IMG/VR virus record: IMGVR_UViG_3300034170_000026 | Span: 1-46,909 of that record | DNA from: a virus | DNA length: 46,909 nt | Strand: one strand, 5' to 3' | Shown: in pieces, positions 5,901 to 20,535 of the stretch | How the letters are laid out: each line of letters starts with the position of its first letter | How positions within the stretch are numbered: the first letter of the stretch is position 1 | Notes under the pieces: generated by a model | The model's input: only the letters and a program-made list of their open reading frames with translations | What the model was told of the DNA's origin: nothing | Databases searched by the model: none | Translations under genes and position numbers: made by a program

Positions 5901-6241
5901 AACCACACCTCCAATCTCTGCACGGCCAGCGCCAATCGCTCGCCATCTTCTCGACTCAACCGATCGCCACGCTCAAGCATCGACCTGGCAGCCTCCCAGA
6001 TCAGCCACTCGTGACGAATATCTTTGCTCTCTTTGTGCTCCTGCTCATGTCTGGTGATGCGATTTTCTGTCCAAACGAACGTTTCTCCGTCGATAAACGA
6101 GCCAAAAACACCGGTTTTCTGCATTTTCATCAAAAAACCATTACGCAGCTCATCGATCCGAAACTTCCGAAACTTGAGGTCTTCGGCGGTGATCGGAACC
6201 TTGATCCCGTACTGGGCGCGAATGGCTTCTTCGAATGTCAT
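5897..6241 (-). CDS. Early phage protein, 114 aa
   Basis: MTFEEAIRAQYGIKVPITAEDLKF precedes KTGVFGSFIDGETFVWTENR and a C-terminal IRHEWLIWEAARSMLERGD. The HEWLIWEAA motif is related to the W-x-A-W/W-x-A-A endings of neighbours. It is coupled by ATGA overlaps to the DUF3987 gene and to 5748-5900. Function unknown. Confidence 0.65.
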   Translation of the reverse strand: MTFEEAIRAQYGIKVPITAEDLKFRKFRIDELRNGFLMKMQKTGVFGSFIDGETFVWTENRITRHEQEHKESKDIRHEWLIWEAARSMLERGDRLSREDGERLALAVQRLEVWL

Positions 6242-7803
6242 GCGATGGCTACCTTCCCGGCTGCGTTGAGGATCAGTTGCCCGTTGAGCAGCATCGAGTC
6301 AATGCGTGCGCTCGCCATCTTGAACGAGGCTGGCATTGCCTTGAATGGCTTCCTGTTCTTCGCCTGGAGCGCCGCCGCACGTTTCTCCATCGGCGCCCTG
6401 GTCAGCACCTCGATAATGGTTTCTTCCTCGGCCTGAGTACCTGACTCGCCTGCGCTGTTCAGGATGCCCTTGATGTGATCGGCTAGGCCCAGCACCAGAT
6501 CAATCGATTCCTCAATGATCCACGTAGGAATTATCTCGGACACCTTGCAATCGTTCGACAGGCACTCGATCACGTAAATGTTTCCGGCGATCTTCATAAC
6601 GTGCGTTTCGATCTTTGCCAGCCACCCCATCATCACCATCTCGCCAGCCATCTTCAGGTCATAGAGATATGACTCAGTCGAGTTCTTGGCTTCGCGCAGG
6701 ATCCGATATCCCTCATCAGATGCTCTGATGCGAATAAGGTTTTCCGGATCCATGATCACCCTGGCGTCATCGTCAGCCGCGTATTGCTTCAGCACGCTAT
6801 CCGAGTACATGTCGACACACGCCGCACATGCACGCTCAAACGATTCCTTCTCGCTGCGCGTCGGGAAATGCCCCTCGTTGCGACGAAAGCCAATCGGATC
6901 GGGCTCGGCCAGGTAGATAAATCGCTCGGCCATCCCAGAGCCGCCAGAAGCCGCCAGGACGCGCTTGCTACTGCCAGGCTGGGCGATTATCACCACGCAG
7001 CCCTGAACCATCCCAGTGAACGCCTTACGACCAGCTCGCATGCCAGACACGTACTCGCTGGCGTAACCCTTCAGGATCAGCTCGTTGGTGCTGGAGAATG
7101 ACCCGGACTCAGGGAACAGCGATTGCAGACCAGACTGCTCGGCGCTGGACACGACAAAACGACCTTCGGAGCACCCGGAAAGGAAGCCGTCAATCGAAGC
7201 CGACGTACCATCAGATGTCTCGCTGAACGTGCGCTTAATGTGCTGCTCAGCCGGTATGTCCTTTTCCTTTAGTTCACGGTTAATCCCGCCGACTTTCTTG
7301 TTGTGCTGCGCCACGCCCAGGCGATAAGGCTTCATGCCGACATCGAGCAAGTAGCTCTTCATCATGGCGGGAGGCTGTTCGATGATCGTGTACATTCCCA
7401 GCGACACGCATGAATCCGTCGAGTACTGAGTGGCAAACGCCGTCGACACCGAGCAACTTGCTGACGCCAGCAAAGCAAAGAACGAACTCACTTCAGGGAA
7501 TTCAATCTTGTTATGCACGACCCGCGCCAACTTGCCTACCGTCGTGTTTGCGATTCGGTCACTCAGCTCAAGCAATGTCGGAATAAACTCGGCGTCATCA
7601 ACAACTTCCTTTTTCACACGCGGCTTATATTCGCGGCGCGGCTTAACGTCGACAGGAACAGGAATATCTTTTGTCGGCGCAACTTCAATGACGCCAATAT
7701 CAAACGATGATATTGAAAAGTCGTCGTCGTCCGGCATCACTGTCGAATACAACTCGACAGGAGGCATATCTATTGTTGGCGGATTGCTAATATCGATATC
7801 CAT
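6238..7803 (-). CDS. DUF3987 primase/helicase-associated protein
   Basis: About 521 aa from ATG 7803, which overlaps the upstream stop (TAATG). The body has the DUF3987 layout: a core starting near FFALLASASC, a conserved DGTSASIDGFLSG region, SSAEQSGLQSLF in the Walker-B-like position, and GMAERFIYLAEP. These proteins are linked to phage and plasmid replication. The expected P-loop near TIIEQPPAMMKSYLLDVG lacks a classical GK[ST], so ATP hydrolysis is uncertain. It is the largest gene of the leftward operon started at 8054-8082, consistent with a replication role alongside the primase. Confidence 0.7.
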   Translation of the reverse strand: MDIDISNPPTIDMPPVELYSTVMPDDDDFSISSFDIGVIEVAPTKDIPVPVDVKPRREYKPRVKKEVVDDAEFIPTLLELSDRIANTTVGKLARVVHNKIEFPEVSSFFALLASASCSVSTAFATQYSTDSCVSLGMYTIIEQPPAMMKSYLLDVGMKPYRLGVAQHNKKVGGINRELKEKDIPAEQHIKRTFSETSDGTSASIDGFLSGCSEGRFVVSSAEQSGLQSLFPESGSFSSTNELILKGYASEYVSGMRAGRKAFTGMVQGCVVIIAQPGSSKRVLAASGGSGMAERFIYLAEPDPIGFRRNEGHFPTRSEKESFERACAACVDMYSDSVLKQYAADDDARVIMDPENLIRIRASDEGYRILREAKNSTESYLYDLKMAGEMVMMGWLAKIETHVMKIAGNIYVIECLSNDCKVSEIIPTWIIEESIDLVLGLADHIKGILNSAGESGTQAEEETIIEVLTRAPMEKRAAALQAKNRKPFKAMPASFKMASARIDSMLLNGQLILNAAGKVAIA

Positions 7804-8012
7804 TATTCGATCCGCCAAATGCGATAGCCATCACCCTCTTTGCGGCGCGTCATACGAAAGCCGTTTTGATGCCATTTTGCGAAGGAGTAGGCCGCGCTCG
7901 CGCAGCATTCTACCTCGGCAAGCGAATCAAAATACCGGCTGCCACCAATCGGCCAGTCCTCAAATCGGTAGCGGTTCACCTTCGGAATTGGAACGCCTTC
8001 TTGTAAATCCAT
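7803..8012 (-). CDS. Small conserved phage protein (DUF7303-like)
   Basis: The start is placed at ATG 8012, preceded by GGAGAG; upstream in-frame codons are unlikely. The product MDLQEGVPIPKVNRYRFEDWPIGGSRYF...ASAAYSFAKWHQNGFRMTRRK ending in GYRIWRIE matches a common small phage family (P-x-x-R-Y-x-F...G-S-x-x-F...A-Y-x-x-x-K...R-x-W-R). First gene of the leftward replication operon. Function unknown. Confidence 0.65.
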   Translation of the reverse strand: MDLQEGVPIPKVNRYRFEDWPIGGSRYFDSLAEVECCASAAYSFAKWHQNGFRMTRRKEGDGYRIWRIE

Positions 8013-8082: not shown

Positions 8083-8410
8083 ACTCTTTGTTCCCTTAGA
8101 GCCCTTAGATCTCTCCAGACTCTTTGCTCTCTTTGTGGTCCCCCTGTGCCCGTAAAAAGAGCACAGGTCTAGCCCACGGAATACGTGGCCTGTAGCGATT
8201 CTGTGCTCTTGTGCTCCTTTTTTTAAAAAAACACCCTTTTTCTATATGAATGATTTCCATTACCAATAACTACCCACTTTTTTGGATTTGCGAATGTGCG
8301 AATGACGGGCACAGGAGCACAATTTGATAGAAATCGTCTGGAGGCCACGTAATACAAGGCCTGGAGCTGTGCTCTTTGGACGGGCACAGCGAGAGCACAG
8401 CCGAGCACAG
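8059..8410. repeat. GAGCACA repeat array within imperfect inverted repeat
   Basis: Eight GAGCACA copies on either strand: 8059, 8159, 8202(-), 8210(-), 8315, 8368(-), 8393 and 8403. GGGCACAG variants lie near 8308 and 8382, with its complement near 8144. Segments 8118-8217 and 8314-8410 are imperfect inverted copies: both hold the repeats, a GGCCACGTA core and an ACGGGCACAG element. About 95 AT-rich bases separate them, including runs of T and A (8218-8231). Array, AT-rich spacer and position between divergent operons suggest a replication origin or master operator. No experiment or search supports this here. Confidence 0.6.
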
Positions 8411-8500: not shown

Positions 8501-8788
8501 GGATTCGTGGTGAATGAGCAGGTCGATTTCTAGAGTCGCCCTGTCCATATCCGATGACTGCAAGGAACCAGATTTGCCGCGACATTGGATGAACTGGCAC
8601 GGCCCACCAATCAAAAGGGGTGCCAAACTTTAAACGCTCTTTAAATCTGAAGTTGTTATTCGCATGGTCATTGTTTCGAATTAGTTCGCCATAGAGTGCT
8701 AGGCTCTTAACGTGATCAATGGTAGATAAGTCTGCAGACAGCAGTGACCAGCCGAATAACAATTACACCAACCGACAGGAACAAGACC
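8501..8788. other. Gene-free stretch with hairpin potential
   Basis: No convincing gene on the plus strand. A minus-strand open frame across 8442-8762 lacks a normal start and ribosome site and runs back over the promoter. A hairpin pairs TGGCAC (near 8598) with GTGCCA (near 8627) around an internal CCC/GGG. It may be leader sequence of the rightward transcript. Confidence 0.4.
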
Positions 8789-8926
8789 ATGCACGAATCT
8801 GCAAAGTGTTATAACGGTGACATGCTTGTTGATGTGATGGATATGGGCGACCACTACTTGGTCAAATGCACAAACTCACTTTATCGCATCGACATCGCCA
8901 CAAATTCAGTAACTAGAATCCTGTAA
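8789..8926 (+). CDS. Small protein, 45 aa
   Basis: ATG 8789 is preceded by GACAGGAACAA, one base different from the shared leader of other genes. MHESAKCYNGDMLVDVMDMGDHYLVKCTNSLYR... ends IDIATNSVTRIL. It looks like a short all-beta protein. It stands alone between promoter 8472-8500 and the noncoding segment. Function unknown. Confidence 0.55.
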   Translation: MHESAKCYNGDMLVDVMDMGDHYLVKCTNSLYRIDIATNSVTRIL

Positions 8927-8929
8927 CCG

Positions 8930-9726
8930 AATAACCAACGCCGCCGCTACACCGTCAGCACATCGGTAAAACCTGCAAAGTTTGCTATGACTCCGCTCCA
9001 GCGGATAGCGCAATGTAGGAAATGTGTCAGCCAGACATATCATGTCCATTTATCAGTAGTCGCGCTGATGGCGAAAGAGCGATAGACTTGAGATGCGTGA
9101 TGTAGGACGCCAGCCCGCAGATGCGGAAATCGTCTTTATCGGAAAGACTGCCGGCATGAAAAAATACACCGTCTCCCCTTGCAATTTCGAAAGCCGGGAC
9201 GAAGCGGAGATAAGCGGTGGTAGTCTTTACCGATGCAGATGAATGCGCAGGCTGATGCGATAATCATGAGATGGAGAGATCACCCGGTGTAGCGATACGG
9301 TGCGGGTGTAGGGGCCGAGATGGGTATGGTTAGGTCCACGGTGATTTATAAAACGAGGCGACACCACCAGCGCGCCTATCCACTCGATGCCGGAGATCAG
9401 CACCGGCCATCTACATCACCCACCATCGACAATGCCAGCGCAGGACCTGAAATCCTGTTAGCTTGTGGTGGTAGCCATTAGGCGTCACGTGGGGAATGCA
9501 TACCGAAGTTCCACGCAAAGCTACAGGGTATGTCAGACGGCAGGGATCAGTTACCGCCGAGGGCTCGGAGCCTCGATAAAAATTCCGAGGCTGATTCGCC
9601 GCAAGGCAAAAAGAGCAGGATGGTTCAATTCCATCTCGTTGGCCGAGATCTGGTGAAGGATCCATGGTTCGAATCCATGGCGCGAGCAATCGTGATGACA
9701 GTACTCCAGTCGGTATGGAGAGGCCA
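8930..9726 (+). ncRNA. Candidate large structured noncoding RNA (~800 nt)
   Basis: No protein frame with a plausible start spans this segment; the open frames near its right end are short and poor. It is dense in self-complementary pieces: a compound stem at 8981-9012 (TCCGCT/AGCGGA plus GCTA/TAGC), hairpins 9034-9046, 9052-9069, 9132-9148 (GTCTTT/AAAGAC), 9281-9308 (CACCCG/CGGGTG with an internal GCGA loop), 9389-9407, 9443-9459 and 9569-9592. It includes tRNA-like T arms and ends in a strong terminator. Size, phage location, and tRNA association recall GOLLD or ROOL giant RNAs, but I cannot match a specific family. Confidence 0.45.
9595..9686 (+). tRNA. Degenerate tRNA-like element
   Basis: A perfect T arm (CATGG, loop TTCGAAT, CCATG at 9663-9679) follows a GATC hairpin like a long variable arm (9647-9662). 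A 5-bp stem with loop TTCAATT at 9619-9635 could be an anticodon arm (CAA). The acceptor pairs only partly (TTCGCCG with GCGCGAG), the D arm is poor, and base 37 would be T. It is not a standard tRNA; it may be decayed or part of the surrounding structured RNA. Confidence 0.3.
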
Positions 9727-9728
9727 CT

Positions 9729-9760
9729 AAGCCCGCAACCTCACGGAAGCGGGCTTTTTC
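9729..9760 (+). terminator. Strong rho-independent terminator
   Basis: Stem AAGCCCGC/GCGGGCTT with a 12-base loop followed by TTTT. It closes the gene-free segment and separates it from the terminase operon. Confidence 0.85.
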
Positions 9761-9819
9761 ATTTCCTAGGGCGTGATATAGTTCTGGCATCTATCCACTT
9801 TCGTGACAGGCGAAAAATC

Positions 9820-9993
9820 ATGGGCCGAAAAACACAGATAACCTTGAAGTCGCCACTGATGATCCTATGGGCATCGCAGTGCTTCGACTCAGGCCAAATC
9901 CTTTGGAGAGGCGGATATCCGCAGGTCGTAGATCGCGTTTATCACAGCGGTGGGTATGGGATCGCTACGCTTTCCGAGGTCGCATACAGATGA
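9820..9993 (+). CDS. Small protein before terminase, 57 aa
   Basis: ATG 9820 follows GACAGGCGAA. The product MGRKTQITLKSPLMILWASQCF... ends GYGIATLSEVAYR. Its stop overlaps the start of the small terminase (ATGA), the coupling seen throughout the genome. Function unknown. Confidence 0.5.
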   Translation: MGRKTQITLKSPLMILWASQCFDSGQILWRGGYPQVVDRVYHSGGYGIATLSEVAYR

Positions 9994-10598
9994 CTCCTGA
10001 GCAGCAATTACTCTTTGATCAGCTGACTGCTCTCCAGAAGAAGCTGTGCACCATCCTGATTGGCAATCCAGCATTGAGCCAGAGAGAGGCTTACTACGCT
10101 GCTGGCGGCAAGGCAAAAAGCGATGATGTGGCAGATGCGTCGGCAAGCGAGATCCTAGCCAATCCCAAGGTAAAGCCATTCATGGAATCCATGAGATTGC
10201 AAGCAATAGATGATGCAATCATGACCCGTGAAGAAGCGCTTAAAACCCTGTCCATGATTGGCCGCACGCACCTAAAAGACATCGTTAAATTCAGCACCGT
10301 CAACATCGGCAAAGATCTGGAGACTGGCGCCGACCTGAGCCAAACAGCCTGGGAGATCAATGCCGACCTGCAAGAGACTGACAGCGACAAGCTAATCATT
10401 ATCTCCGAGCTTGAGGTTGGTAAGTTCGGCCCGAAGATCAAAACCCATTCGCCGGTTGCTGCCATCAAGCAGCTTGCTGAAATGCAAGGCTGGAATGCTG
10501 CGACCAAGCATGAGATCACCGGCAAGAATGGGGGCCCTATTATGACCAGCCACAGCGACTTCTACGCGGACGACGATGATGGCGAAGGCGAGTCTTAA
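9990..10598 (+). CDS. terS: Terminase small subunit
   Basis: A 202-aa protein from ATG 9990. It shows the Terminase_2 pattern: an N-terminal HTH-like region (KLCTILIGNPALSQREAYYAAG), SASEILANPKVKPFMESM, and REEALKTLSMIGRTHLKDIVKF. The tail is acidic (YADDDDGEGES). TerS recognises the packaging site and loads the large subunit. The in-frame extension to 9867 is rejected because it overlaps a better gene and has no leader. Confidence 0.85.
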   Translation: MTPEQQLLFDQLTALQKKLCTILIGNPALSQREAYYAAGGKAKSDDVADASASEILANPKVKPFMESMRLQAIDDAIMTREEALKTLSMIGRTHLKDIVKFSTVNIGKDLETGADLSQTAWEINADLQETDSDKLIIISELEVGKFGPKIKTHSPVAAIKQLAEMQGWNAATKHEITGKNGGPIMTSHSDFYADDDDGEGES

Positions 10599-17413: not shown

Positions 17414-17566
17414 ATGGATAATCTGCAATGGATCGGTATTTGTCTCGCCTTCCTTTCGGCGAATACAGTCAAAGGAATGCCAGGAAGAACTCAGCTAGCC
17501 AAAAAGACTCGCGCGCTCGTTGAGCATGATCGCGCATTAAACAACTGGCCCAGGCCGAATACATGA
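17414..17566 (+). CDS. Small accessory protein, 50 aa
   Basis: ATG 17414 (GTG 17408 is an alternative). MDNLQWIGICLAFLSANTVKG may be one membrane helix; the remainder is basic (RTQLAKKTRALVEHDRALNNW). Last gene of the accessory cassette. Function unknown. Confidence 0.5.
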   Translation: MDNLQWIGICLAFLSANTVKGMPGRTQLAKKTRALVEHDRALNNWPRPNT

Positions 17567-17614
17567 TCGCGCAGGGTATTGAAACCCAACAAAACGTCGC
17601 GCATACTGCACGGC

Positions 17615-18919
17615 ATGAAGACACCTGGCCCTGTTCTTGCATTTGATCGCGCATCTGTCCGTCGATACGACGATGACGGACGATTGCACGTTGCGATAAC
17701 TAATATCTCCAAGGCCAACGTCTGCCAGTATTACGGCGCCGAGATTCCTAAGTGGCAATCGCTCGGCCTGGATGCGCAGAAGGTCTACCGCCTGTTGCGC
17801 GACCCTGCGGCCCTTGAGGCTGCCGCGCCAACGTTCAACAACGTCCCTCTCCAGATCAAGCACGTTCACCAGAAAGCCAATGACCCGCAAGCAGATCTAA
17901 TCGTTGGTTCGGTCAGTGGTGCCGTGTTCGTCCATCCCTACCTGTCTGCATCGCTTTGCGTCTGGCACGAAGAAGGCATTGCCGCCATTGAGACCGAGAC
18001 GATGGTTGAGCTGTCGTCGTCCTACCATTACGATGCAGTCATGGAGCCTGGCGAGTTTGAGGGAGAAGCCTACGACGGCAAGATGACCAACATCAGGGGC
18101 AACCATGTCGCCCTGGTAGAAGAAGGTCGTGCAGGCCCTGACGTTATCGTTGCAGACTCAAACCCGTTCACCAACAAACAGGAAACCCCTGCTATGAAAA
18201 CCAAACTGGGCCGAGCCCTGATTGCTGCGCTGTCTGCGGTATCCCCGAAAATCGCTCAGGACTCCAGTCTTGGCGCTCTCGTTGGGGAAGCCAAAAAGAA
18301 AACCTTCAAGAAGACTGAAGTGGTTGCCGCTCTGGTAGCCATGGACTCAGAGATCGATACCAACTCGCTCGACGAAATCATCGACGCGATCTTGGGCGTA
18401 CAGGAGAATCCTGAGCCTGAGAAGCCAACCGCTCTGGCTGGCGACGAAGATGACGACGGCGCCAAATCCAAGCATGCCGAAATCATCGACTTTCTGAAAT
18501 CCAAAGGCCTGGACGCATCCGATCTGGAAGCTGTCGGCAATATGCTGACCCGCATGGACGGCCCTGAAAAACCAGCTGCTACCGACGCCGATCCGTCGAC
18601 CGAGGGCTACATGAAGGAAGATGACGTAAACACCGCCATGGACTCCATGCGCAAATCACTGACCAAGCAGTTCCGCGATCTGGAGCAGGCCAAGGCAGAT
18701 GTGCGCCCTACTGTCGGCGATGTCATCGGCATGGACTCGGCGCCAAGCGTGTATCGCTTCGCACTGGATCAGATGAAGGTTGATCACAAAGATCTTCATG
18801 ACTCCGCTCTGGGCAAGTTCTACGCGCTGGCTGCTGGTCGTCCATTCGTCAAGTCTCCAACCATTGCTAGTGATTCTGCCGCTGTAGCAGACATCCCTGG
18901 CCTCTCTCGTTATAGCTAA
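17615..18919 (+). CDS. Head maturation protease/scaffold (DUF2213)
   Basis: About 434 aa from ATG 17615; the family normally starts near FDRASVRRYDDDGRLHVA. The protease-like N-half continues with NISKANVCQYYGAEIP, TFNNVPLQIKHVHQ, SSSYHYDAVMEPGEFEG and GNHVALVEEGRAGPDV. The C-half is acidic, helical and scaffold-like. ATG 18194 (MKTKLGRALIAAL, preceded by CAGGAAA) could start a separate scaffold protein in frame, as known for other phage protease/scaffold pairs. Confidence 0.8.
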   Translation: MKTPGPVLAFDRASVRRYDDDGRLHVAITNISKANVCQYYGAEIPKWQSLGLDAQKVYRLLRDPAALEAAAPTFNNVPLQIKHVHQKANDPQADLIVGSVSGAVFVHPYLSASLCVWHEEGIAAIETETMVELSSSYHYDAVMEPGEFEGEAYDGKMTNIRGNHVALVEEGRAGPDVIVADSNPFTNKQETPAMKTKLGRALIAALSAVSPKIAQDSSLGALVGEAKKKTFKKTEVVAALVAMDSEIDTNSLDEIIDAILGVQENPEPEKPTALAGDEDDDGAKSKHAEIIDFLKSKGLDASDLEAVGNMLTRMDGPEKPAATDADPSTEGYMKEDDVNTAMDSMRKSLTKQFRDLEQAKADVRPTVGDVIGMDSAPSVYRFALDQMKVDHKDLHDSALGKFYALAAGRPFVKSPTIASDSAAVADIPGLSRYS

Positions 18920-19449: not shown

Positions 19450-20535
19450 ATGGACCCAATCATGCAAGCACTCCTTGAGCGAGCCGGTATCGCGTTTGAC
19501 TCAAGTTTCGGCACTACCCGCATGCTGCCGAAAGGCAAAAGCTATCGTGACATCATCGGCGTTGATCGCGATGGCGCTCTGATCGCGATGGACGCCGCGT
19601 TCCCGCTGGTGACAAACGCCAACAGCGGCATCCCTGCGATGCTGTCTACCTTCATCGATCCCAAGTTGATCGAAGTTCTGAACGCTCCGATGAATGCCGT
19701 GGAAGCGGCTGGTAGCGAGAAGAAAACCGGTGACTGGACCACTCGCACCGCAATGTTCCCCGTGATCGAATCGACTGGTGAAGTTACCAGCTACGGCGAT
19801 TACAACAACAGCGGCTCGACCGGCTCCAACTTCCAGTTCCCGCAACGCCAGTCGTATCACTACCAGACTGTTACCCAGTGGGGCGAGCGTGAGCTTGCTG
19901 ATGCTGGCCTGGCTAAGATCGACTACGCTGCACGCCTGAACATCGCATCGGCCTTGGCTCTGAACAAGTTCCAGAACAAGACCTACCTGTTCGGCGTTTC
20001 CGGCCTGCAAAACTACGGCATGCTGAACGATCCGGCGCTGCCTGCCGACATCACGCCAAACACCAAAGCCGCTGGTGGTACTGCGTGGATCCTGCCGACC
20101 GGCCAGATCAATGCGACCAACCTGGAAATTTATCAGGACGTGCAGAAGCTGTTTTATGCACAACTGGCCCGCAACAAAGGCTTGGTTAACGCCAAGACTC
20201 CGATGACCCTGATCATGTCGCCTCAGTCCGAACTGGCAATGACCGTGGCAAATGGCACCGTGACCACCGTGGTTGCATGGGATCTGATCACCAAGGCCTT
20301 CCCTAATATGAAGGTCGTGTCGGTTCCTGAGTACGCCACCGCTTCCGGTCAGAAGGTGCAATTGGTTGTTGATACCTACGAAGGCCAGCGTACCTGGGAT
20401 CCTTCGTTCACTGAAAAAATGCGTGCGCATCCGATCATCATCGAGATGTCCGCGTTCAAGCAGAAGAAGTCGGCTGGCACCTGGGGCACCGTGGTCTACA
20501 TGCCTACGTTTGTGCAAGGTGGCATCGGTTACTGA
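19450..20535 (+). CDS. Major capsid protein (DUF2184)
   Basis: A 361-aa protein of the DUF2184 capsid family (HK97-type fold): N-terminal ERAGIAFDSSFGTTRMLPKG, a DAAFPLVTNANSGIPAMLSTFIDP region, WTTRTAMFPVIESTGEVTSYGDY, and C-terminal KMRAHPIIIEMSAFKQKKSAGTWG. It forms the icosahedral shell. AAGGAG precedes ATG and a strong terminator follows, fitting high expression. Confidence 0.9.
   Translation: MDPIMQALLERAGIAFDSSFGTTRMLPKGKSYRDIIGVDRDGALIAMDAAFPLVTNANSGIPAMLSTFIDPKLIEVLNAPMNAVEAAGSEKKTGDWTTRTAMFPVIESTGEVTSYGDYNNSGSTGSNFQFPQRQSYHYQTVTQWGERELADAGLAKIDYAARLNIASALALNKFQNKTYLFGVSGLQNYGMLNDPALPADITPNTKAAGGTAWILPTGQINATNLEIYQDVQKLFYAQLARNKGLVNAKTPMTLIMSPQSELAMTVANGTVTTVVAWDLITKAFPNMKVVSVPEYATASGQKVQLVVDTYEGQRTWDPSFTEKMRAHPIIIEMSAFKQKKSAGTWGTVVYMPTFVQGGIGY

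Follow-up and report, generated by a model that had tools for sequence, protein, structure and literature searches.

A putative kissing-loop RNA clamp with exchangeable inserts, found ahead of a phage late operon and in many other phages

Introduction

In the pRNA of phage phi29, a hairpin loop of one molecule pairs with a hairpin loop of another, and there is no exchangeable insert. The GOLLD and ROOL RNAs contain conserved kissing loops and are found near tRNA islands (PMC12286853). STnc100 (Rfam RF02076) is a gammaproteobacterial prophage sRNA whose copies are expressed in E. coli O157:H7, where one of them was confirmed by Northern blot (PMC5331693), and copies in Stx phages are known from the literature. 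PasD from enteropathogenic E. coli is reported to share the structure of STnc100 and probably its ancestry (PMC13192938), and is an Hfq-dependent RNA that interacts with many mRNAs (PMC8550237).

Here we analyze a stretch of viral DNA of 46,909 nucleotides (IMG/VR record IMGVR_UViG_3300034170_000026), hereafter called the window. A preliminary description, made from the letters of the sequence, had proposed that positions 8930–9760 might specify a giant structured phage RNA.

Results

A non-coding stretch at the junction of early and late genes

Positions 8930–9760 are flanked by leftward early genes, with a helicase gene on the − strand (6238–7818), and by a rightward late operon, with the gene for the terminase small subunit (9993–10598) followed by those for the large subunit and the portal. 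No protein family match was found between the helicase and terminase genes, the ORFs within 8930–9760 are at most 92 aa long and overlap one another, and the 60-aa ORF at 8744–8926 has no PHROG match, which bears out the earlier view that this early/late junction lacks a convincing gene. The preliminary description had also proposed Rfam covariance-model and tRNA searches, and these returned nothing in the window: none of the 4227 families of Rfam 15 matched, ARAGORN found no tRNA, and the RF00005 model gave no complete cloverleaf; tRNA-like elements are limited to isolated T arms. A simple promoter scan counted no more promoters than in shuffles. Between the early genes and the RNA, at 8150–8405, lie repeated GAGCACAG and GGCCACGUAAUAC inverted repeats, which are also present in a close relative, L124.

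The + strand of 8925–9765 folds at −296.9 kcal/mol, compared with −277.8 ± 7.2 kcal/mol for dinucleotide shuffles (z −2.66, 0/20), and the − strand has a z of −1.54. The excess on the + strand is due mostly to 8956–9029 (z −2.06) and 9132–9240 (z −3.69); 9479–9600 and 9600–9690 fold no better than shuffles. The strong hairpins claimed earlier are therefore real in that the + strand folds better than shuffles, but the one at 9132–9148 is a local alternative only, as L003 and L064 retain its 5′ side and not the partner, and the longer stem 9138–9149/9222–9235 is retained. Chance is ruled out through comparison rather than by energy, that is, by conservation with covariation and by a generic descriptor that recovered 242 modules from fetched loci totaling 3.27 Mb and 0 from shuffled copies. 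The classic terminator on which the RNA was said to end is clear by eye and in folds at 9729–9759; a simple terminator scan overlooked it because its loop is long.

The predicted parts of the RNA, with the evidence for each, are as follows.

8958..9027 (+): 5′ hairpin H1, outer stem GCACAU/AUGUGU and inner stem CCUGCA/UGUAGG; five pairs compensatory versus L124, and fold z
9050..9071 (+): hairpin H2, loop UAGUCGCG; loop kept and stem compensatory versus L124
9072..9137 (+): conserved linker, hairpin CCGCAGAUGCGG and CGUCUUUAUC box; in L124, and partly in Touem01, AH02 (L003) and L064
9138..9149 (+): 5′ arm of stem P2 (AUCGGAAAGACU), partner 9222–9235; compensatory pair in L124
9150..9221 (+): cargo 1, inside the P2 loop; unrelated sequence there in L124, tRNA-like in some other phages
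9222..9235 (+): 3′ arm of stem P2; its final bases overlap the 5′ arm of stem P1
9232..9241 (+): 5′ arm of outer stem P1 (GAUGCAGAUG); match of covariance model R1 at 9232–9417, and covariation
9245..9259 (+): hairpin A, loop GGCUGA (9250–9255); conserved motif, covariation
9251..9255 (+): kissing strand GCUGA, partner 9397–9401; loop-loop covariation
9260..9388 (+): cargo 2, an independent domain (AAAACGAGGCG..GCGCCUAU); recurs in L052, L107 and Klebsiella phage phi1_146050
9389..9407 (+): hairpin B, loop AGAUCAGCA (9394–9402); conserved motif, covariation
9397..9401 (+): kissing strand UCAGC; loop-loop covariation with hairpin A
9408..9417 (+): 3′ arm of outer stem P1 (CAUCUACAUC); pairs with GAUGCAGAUG, R1 match
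9422..9472 (+): small module GACAAUGCCAGCG..hairpin..AGCUU within an outer stem; homolog with a different outer stem in Pseudomonas phage MR14
9569..9592 (+): hairpin AGCCUCG/CGAGGCU; sequence and fold only
9604..9680 (+): double T-arm domain, T arm 9619–9635, CUCGUUGGCCGAGAUCUGGUGAAG, T arm 9662–9680; recurs in relatives
9729..9759 (+): intrinsic terminator AAGCCCGC..GCGGGCUUUUU; sequence and fold

Two hairpins closed by an outer stem and paired through their loops

A sensitive blastn search revealed highly conserved short segments within the non-coding gaps of phages that are otherwise unrelated. Two of these segments, motif A (GAUGAAUGCGCAGGCUGAUGCG) and motif B (GCCGGAGAUCAGCACCGGCC), recur everywhere. 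Scanning viral contigs for motif A alone gave at least 120 matches, and in most of the matches listed motif B lies 31–167 nt downstream. The flanks of A and B are complementary and freely variable among phages (UUGUGGUG/CACCACAA, AUUGGAUG/CAUCCAAU, UGUUGGUG/CACCAACA and GCGGUCUG/CAGACCGC), which implies an outer stem, P1, closing two hairpins around a variable stretch. The core in the window, 9138–9417 on the + strand, shows this layout of outer stem P1, hairpin A (loop GGCUGA), variable insert and hairpin B (loop ..UCAGC.). Five bases of one loop are complementary to five of the other, in the window GCUGA at 9251–9255 with UCAGC at 9397–9401.

Because both loops are nearly invariant, we searched for A hairpins with an altered loop base, leaving B unspecified, and 28 contigs were returned. 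Twenty of them were rejected as chance matches that have no closing B hairpin, while all eight remaining non-canonical modules carry a compensating B loop, namely GGUCGA with UCGAC (L207, L225 and L229), GGCCGA with UCGGC or ACGGC (L213, L218 and L228), GGCCGG with UCGGC (L220), and GUGCGA with UCGCA (L215). GACUGA occurs with UCAGU in L146 and L149. UCGGC variants of B in L260, L262 and L268 were set aside, as no A hairpin is present there.

A descriptor fixing stem P1 and both hairpin stems, with the loops free, found 156 cores, and 0 in shuffled sequence. The 112 distinct cores were selected on the pairing of stem P1, the A stem and the B stem, the loops not being a criterion; 96.6% of their loop-loop cells are paired, with double changes at three of the five pairs, versus only 27–47% when the same structure is slid by 1–3 columns. 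Stem P1 covaries at seven of eight pairs, and the hairpin stems covary strongly as well, but the loop-loop helix is the clean test because the pairing of stem P1 and of the hairpin stems was selected for. G-U outnumbers A-C in this helix (18 versus 7), as is expected for an RNA of this strand. Covarying pairs in aligned homologs, another check proposed at the outset, were thus found, those of the loop-loop helix included, and at the level of sequence comparison the predicted clamp, stem P1 with two kissing hairpins, can be regarded as established.

R1, a covariance model, was trained on 50 full modules, among them neither the window nor any of the loci that were first searched with it. It finds the window at 9232–9417 (+) with 64.3 bits (E 8.5e-16) and also detects HK620, HK629, PY54, phage P1, phage Jeremy and Klebsiella phage Magnus. 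Run over twelve whole motif-carrying phage genomes, one of which (AH02) belonged to the training set, R1 gave 14 matches, all in expected non-coding places or tandem copies. Given this conservation in relatives, the suggestion of a structured non-coding RNA with tRNA-like parts is upheld; its core is absent from Rfam.

Modules shared singly among relatives

In L124, the P2 insert is replaced and the remainder kept, with ten compensatory pairs in H1, H2, P2 and elsewhere; the H2 stem is AUCAG/CUGAU in the window versus GCUGG/CCAGU in L124. H2 also has a weak match in Pseudoalteromonas phage H103, where L409 1501–1539 is like the window H2 with its 3′ flank (CGCUGAU.GCGAAAGAGCG), and a T-arm-like stretch lies in the same gap. 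The perfect tRNA-type T arms of the preliminary description are present at 9619–9635 and 9662–9680. Their double arrangement recurs in Touem01 and in the viral contigs L403, L404 and L406, where the T-arm stems are changed, only the first T arm is retained in L405 and L407, and the domain of the window matches no Rfam family. Around CUCGUUGGCCGAGAUCUGGUGAAG, the domain (window 9604–9680; L403, L404 and L406; L004 3001–3080) resembles a tRNA-Ser D arm beside T arms. Pseudomonas phage MR14 (L408, 62–235) has a perfect 25-bp stem around a T arm and, 3′ of that stem, a homolog of window 9422–9472. Because 9422–9472 and the double T-arm domain have different partners in different phages, the most fitting reading of the locus is a chain of modules.

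Around modules, T-arm motifs lying outside ARAGORN tRNAs have about seven times the density seen elsewhere in the same loci and, together with the two perfect T arms in the window, would fit a decayed tRNA cluster in which the T arms are functionless relics of phage tRNA genes. We consider such decay extremely improbable, since it is already refuted for the core, which has no tRNA likeness and covaries strongly, and since the double T-arm domain is kept with changed stems in other contigs.

The size, T arms, position and loop-loop contacts of the RNA recall GOLLD and ROOL (PMC12286853), a likeness that the preliminary description had noted for position, size and tRNA linkage, and the stretch could accordingly be a single giant ornate RNA with one 800-nt fold, possibly forming a multimeric cage. 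That possibility appears quite unlikely, because matches to GOLLD and ROOL are absent at any threshold, even at E up to 10, single modules occur in differing order and company among relatives, and parts of the stretch fold no better than shuffles. The idea of a possible new class holds in so far as the clamp core, here called the type-1 module, is not among the families of Rfam 15, but one giant 800-nt RNA class is not borne out; the relatives share single modules in varied company instead.

Variable inserts and stem P2

The insert between hairpins A and B is 12–202 nt long (median 74), and its lengths lack a 3-base periodicity, so that it is counted as not coding. Seventy-five insert pairs are at least 75% identical, some of them 100%, despite differing stem P1 arms and unrelated upstream sequence. 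Such near-identical inserts in scaffolds with different outer stems imply that inserts are exchanged as cassettes, and exchange between scaffolds is, to judge from the sequences, well documented. The cargo 2 domain, which has conserved ends of its own, occupies this scaffold in L052 and L107 and is found in Klebsiella phage phi1_146050 without it.

This movement of inserts between scaffolds could also be expected of a DNA-level element, whose hairpins would be folded single-stranded DNA or recombination sites promoting cassette exchange, and compensatory pairing alone would fit a DNA cruciform equally well. The excess of G-U over A-C in the loop-loop helix, the terminators, and the expressed STnc100-type relatives, however, indicate RNA, and make a DNA element very improbable.

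A stem P2 of at least 10 bp was found in 84 of 192 modules versus 12 of 192 shuffled ones. A wider search for the P2 3′ arm gave 91 modules, 40 of which share bases with the stem P1 5′ arm. In phages Jeremy and P1, a tRNA-like structure lies within the P2 loop.

Distribution and genomic settings

Matches were found in 261 named phage records, and the hosts of these phages are Pseudomonas, Klebsiella, Escherichia, Enterobacter, Salmonella, Erwinia, Aeromonas, Cronobacter, Edwardsiella and others. Phages with the core module span Pseudomonas, Enterobacterales, Aeromonas, Acidovorax and others, and include P1, HK620, HK629 and PY54. Any match is present in 1384 of 5426 complete E. coli genomes, and a match over at least 80% of the query in 940; matching loci in GTDB, mainly from Gamma- and Betaproteobacteria, contain a full module in 72 of 118 cases. 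These counts point firmly to a wide distribution of the predicted clamp.

In lambdoid phages (HK620, HK629), the module sits between Q and the lysis genes, and according to the HK620 annotation it comes after pR′ and qut and before tQ. It is located in tRNA clusters in ZC08 and the lytic Klebsiella phages KP591P3 and SCNJ1-C, and adjoins an endonuclease gene in PS-1. In phage P1, the module comes after the ban-operon tRNA genes, on the strand opposite to the annotated plp frame, and a second module (70077–70202 +) lies in the same non-coding stretch. There, plp runs antisense over the RNA module (L130 2155–2724, record 69472–70041; R1 match 69816–69919 +) with upl beside it, and both are probably not genes.

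Some loci are more elaborate. A 3.2-kb stretch of Klebsiella phage Magnus (L133, 1650–4868) with tiny ORFs only, ahead of two tRNAs, contains a type-1 module, an STnc100 copy and several 15–20 bp long-range stems, and constitutes a very large module array. Aeromonas phage 2_D05 (L137) has two module copies (record 17561–17727 and 20310–20476) within a duplicated gene block in which a methylase, NinG and small ORFs are annotated twice. In enterobacterial phages (L131 2200–2300, L133 2190–2330 and L007 2745–2830), a conserved GCGACUUUGCGG-UUUUUUAGAAAC..CACAAAGAUAAAUGCAAACGAUGAUG lies upstream of or near modules.

The position of the module, in the Q-to-lysis leader, at the head of the late operon in the window and in tRNA islands of lytic phages, suggests a late non-coding transcript. 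The main rival explanation starts from the same positions and takes the module as a cis-acting late-leader element that controls antitermination, attenuation or processing of the downstream late transcript. The places of the HK620 and HK629 modules agree with this, as do the termination of the window RNA directly ahead of terminase and the bases shared by stems P2 and P1 in the 40 of 91 long-P2 modules, as in a switch. Nevertheless, a cis-acting leader seems rather unlikely, because the modules in tRNA clusters, by the PS-1 endonuclease gene and in the P1 ban operon have no common downstream gene, early-region settings fit poorly, and variable inserts in one to three copies per phage are unlike a fixed cis element.

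Discussion

The explanation that we favor, and hold to be probable although by no means secure, is that the stretch specifies a non-coding RNA ahead of the late operon, with its own terminator and composed of a chain of modules, in which the clamp presents a trans-acting insert. A closed three-way clamp would arise from stem P1 together with hairpins A and B paired through their loops; the variable insert, cargo 2, would project from its base, and P2, just upstream, would hold cargo 1, which is sometimes tRNA-like. The module would be transcribed late, and the clamp might stabilize and present the insert. The insert may in turn be what does the work, in trans, whether as a regulatory RNA, a decoy or a tRNA-like RNA. 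Inserts could be swapped between phages via recombination in the conserved hairpins. Several observations weigh against this explanation. The inserts as a group are weakly structured (mean z −0.59), and cargo 1 and cargo 2 of the window match the phage's own genome in antisense no more than chance predicts. A tRNA is found within 1 kb of only 27 of 203 modules (13%), versus 38 of 1015 random positions, and co-direction with downstream ORFs is moderate (109 of 177), weaker than a pure late-operon leader predicts.

A broader picture, which we put forward tentatively as a possibility less likely than its negation, is of a plug-in RNA chassis common to phages, in which a kissing-loop clamp takes almost any insert and displays exchangeable effectors, be they tRNA-like, decoy or regulatory RNAs, late in infection. 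Inserts would be traded between unrelated phages, and P1, like many lytic and temperate phages, would carry a member of a superfamily much larger than what would be its two named offshoots, STnc100 and PasD. In the open-access portion of PMC, we found the motif described neither for phage P1 nor as a family of late-leader RNAs. If the favored explanation is correct, an unrecognized structured RNA is carried by many well-studied phages, including P1 and HK620, a copy of the scaffold is present in about one-sixth to one-quarter of complete E. coli genomes, and scattered prophage sRNAs are united under one architecture. A covariance model and precise loop mutations would then be at hand, as well as a natural chassis able to accommodate inserts between 12 and about 200 nt long.

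Among the known systems, GOLLD (RF01998) and ROOL resemble the window RNA in being large non-coding phage RNAs with tRNA parts and kissing loops, but they have one conserved fold, in contrast to a modular chain with swapped inserts; the conserved 3′ half and single continuous molecule of at least 800 nt that define GOLLD are not seen, as the relatives share separate short modules only. The Proteo-phage-1 RNA (RF03044), found in phage PS-1 some 160 nt 5′ of the type-1 module, is a motif separate from the clamp and has zero matches in the window. The phi29 pRNA is likewise a phage RNA with pairing loops, and the window RNA adjoins terminase genes, but there is no sequence or model match between them. 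svsR, a prophage sRNA limiting phage infection, was considered and rejected as unrelated; it is located at the cI gene. PasD is, like clamp modules, prophage-encoded, a likeness drawn here from published descriptions, and is not known to contain a type-1 core.

The nearest known relative by architecture is STnc100. It shares with the clamp an outer stem ending GGUGAAU, a hairpin A, a variable middle, a hairpin B and a CACC strand of the outer stem, and with lambdoid clamp modules the position from Q to holin. STnc100 copies lie between Q and the lysis genes in Fels-1, HK639 and KPP5665-2, and Fels-1 has three of them between Q and holin. Unlike the clamp, STnc100 has CUGUGCGG as its A loop and AGGCA as its B loop, without type-1 loop pairing; a check of these two loops for pairing gave 3-bp options only. 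R1 does not detect the STnc100 copies of Fels-1 and Klebsiella. Since the STnc100 model, whose gathering cut-off is 47 bits, fails to detect the window even at E up to 10, the window is not filed as STnc100. The terminator in the window lies about 310 nt 3′ of the core. The last module of phage P1 and the SfV module score 31 and 30 bits with R1, and 33 and 40 bits, below the gathering score, with the STnc100 model, and this dual recognition links the clamp and STnc100 groups. By analogy, the mode of action of the window RNA would be most like that of STnc100, to which it is architecturally related without being a member.
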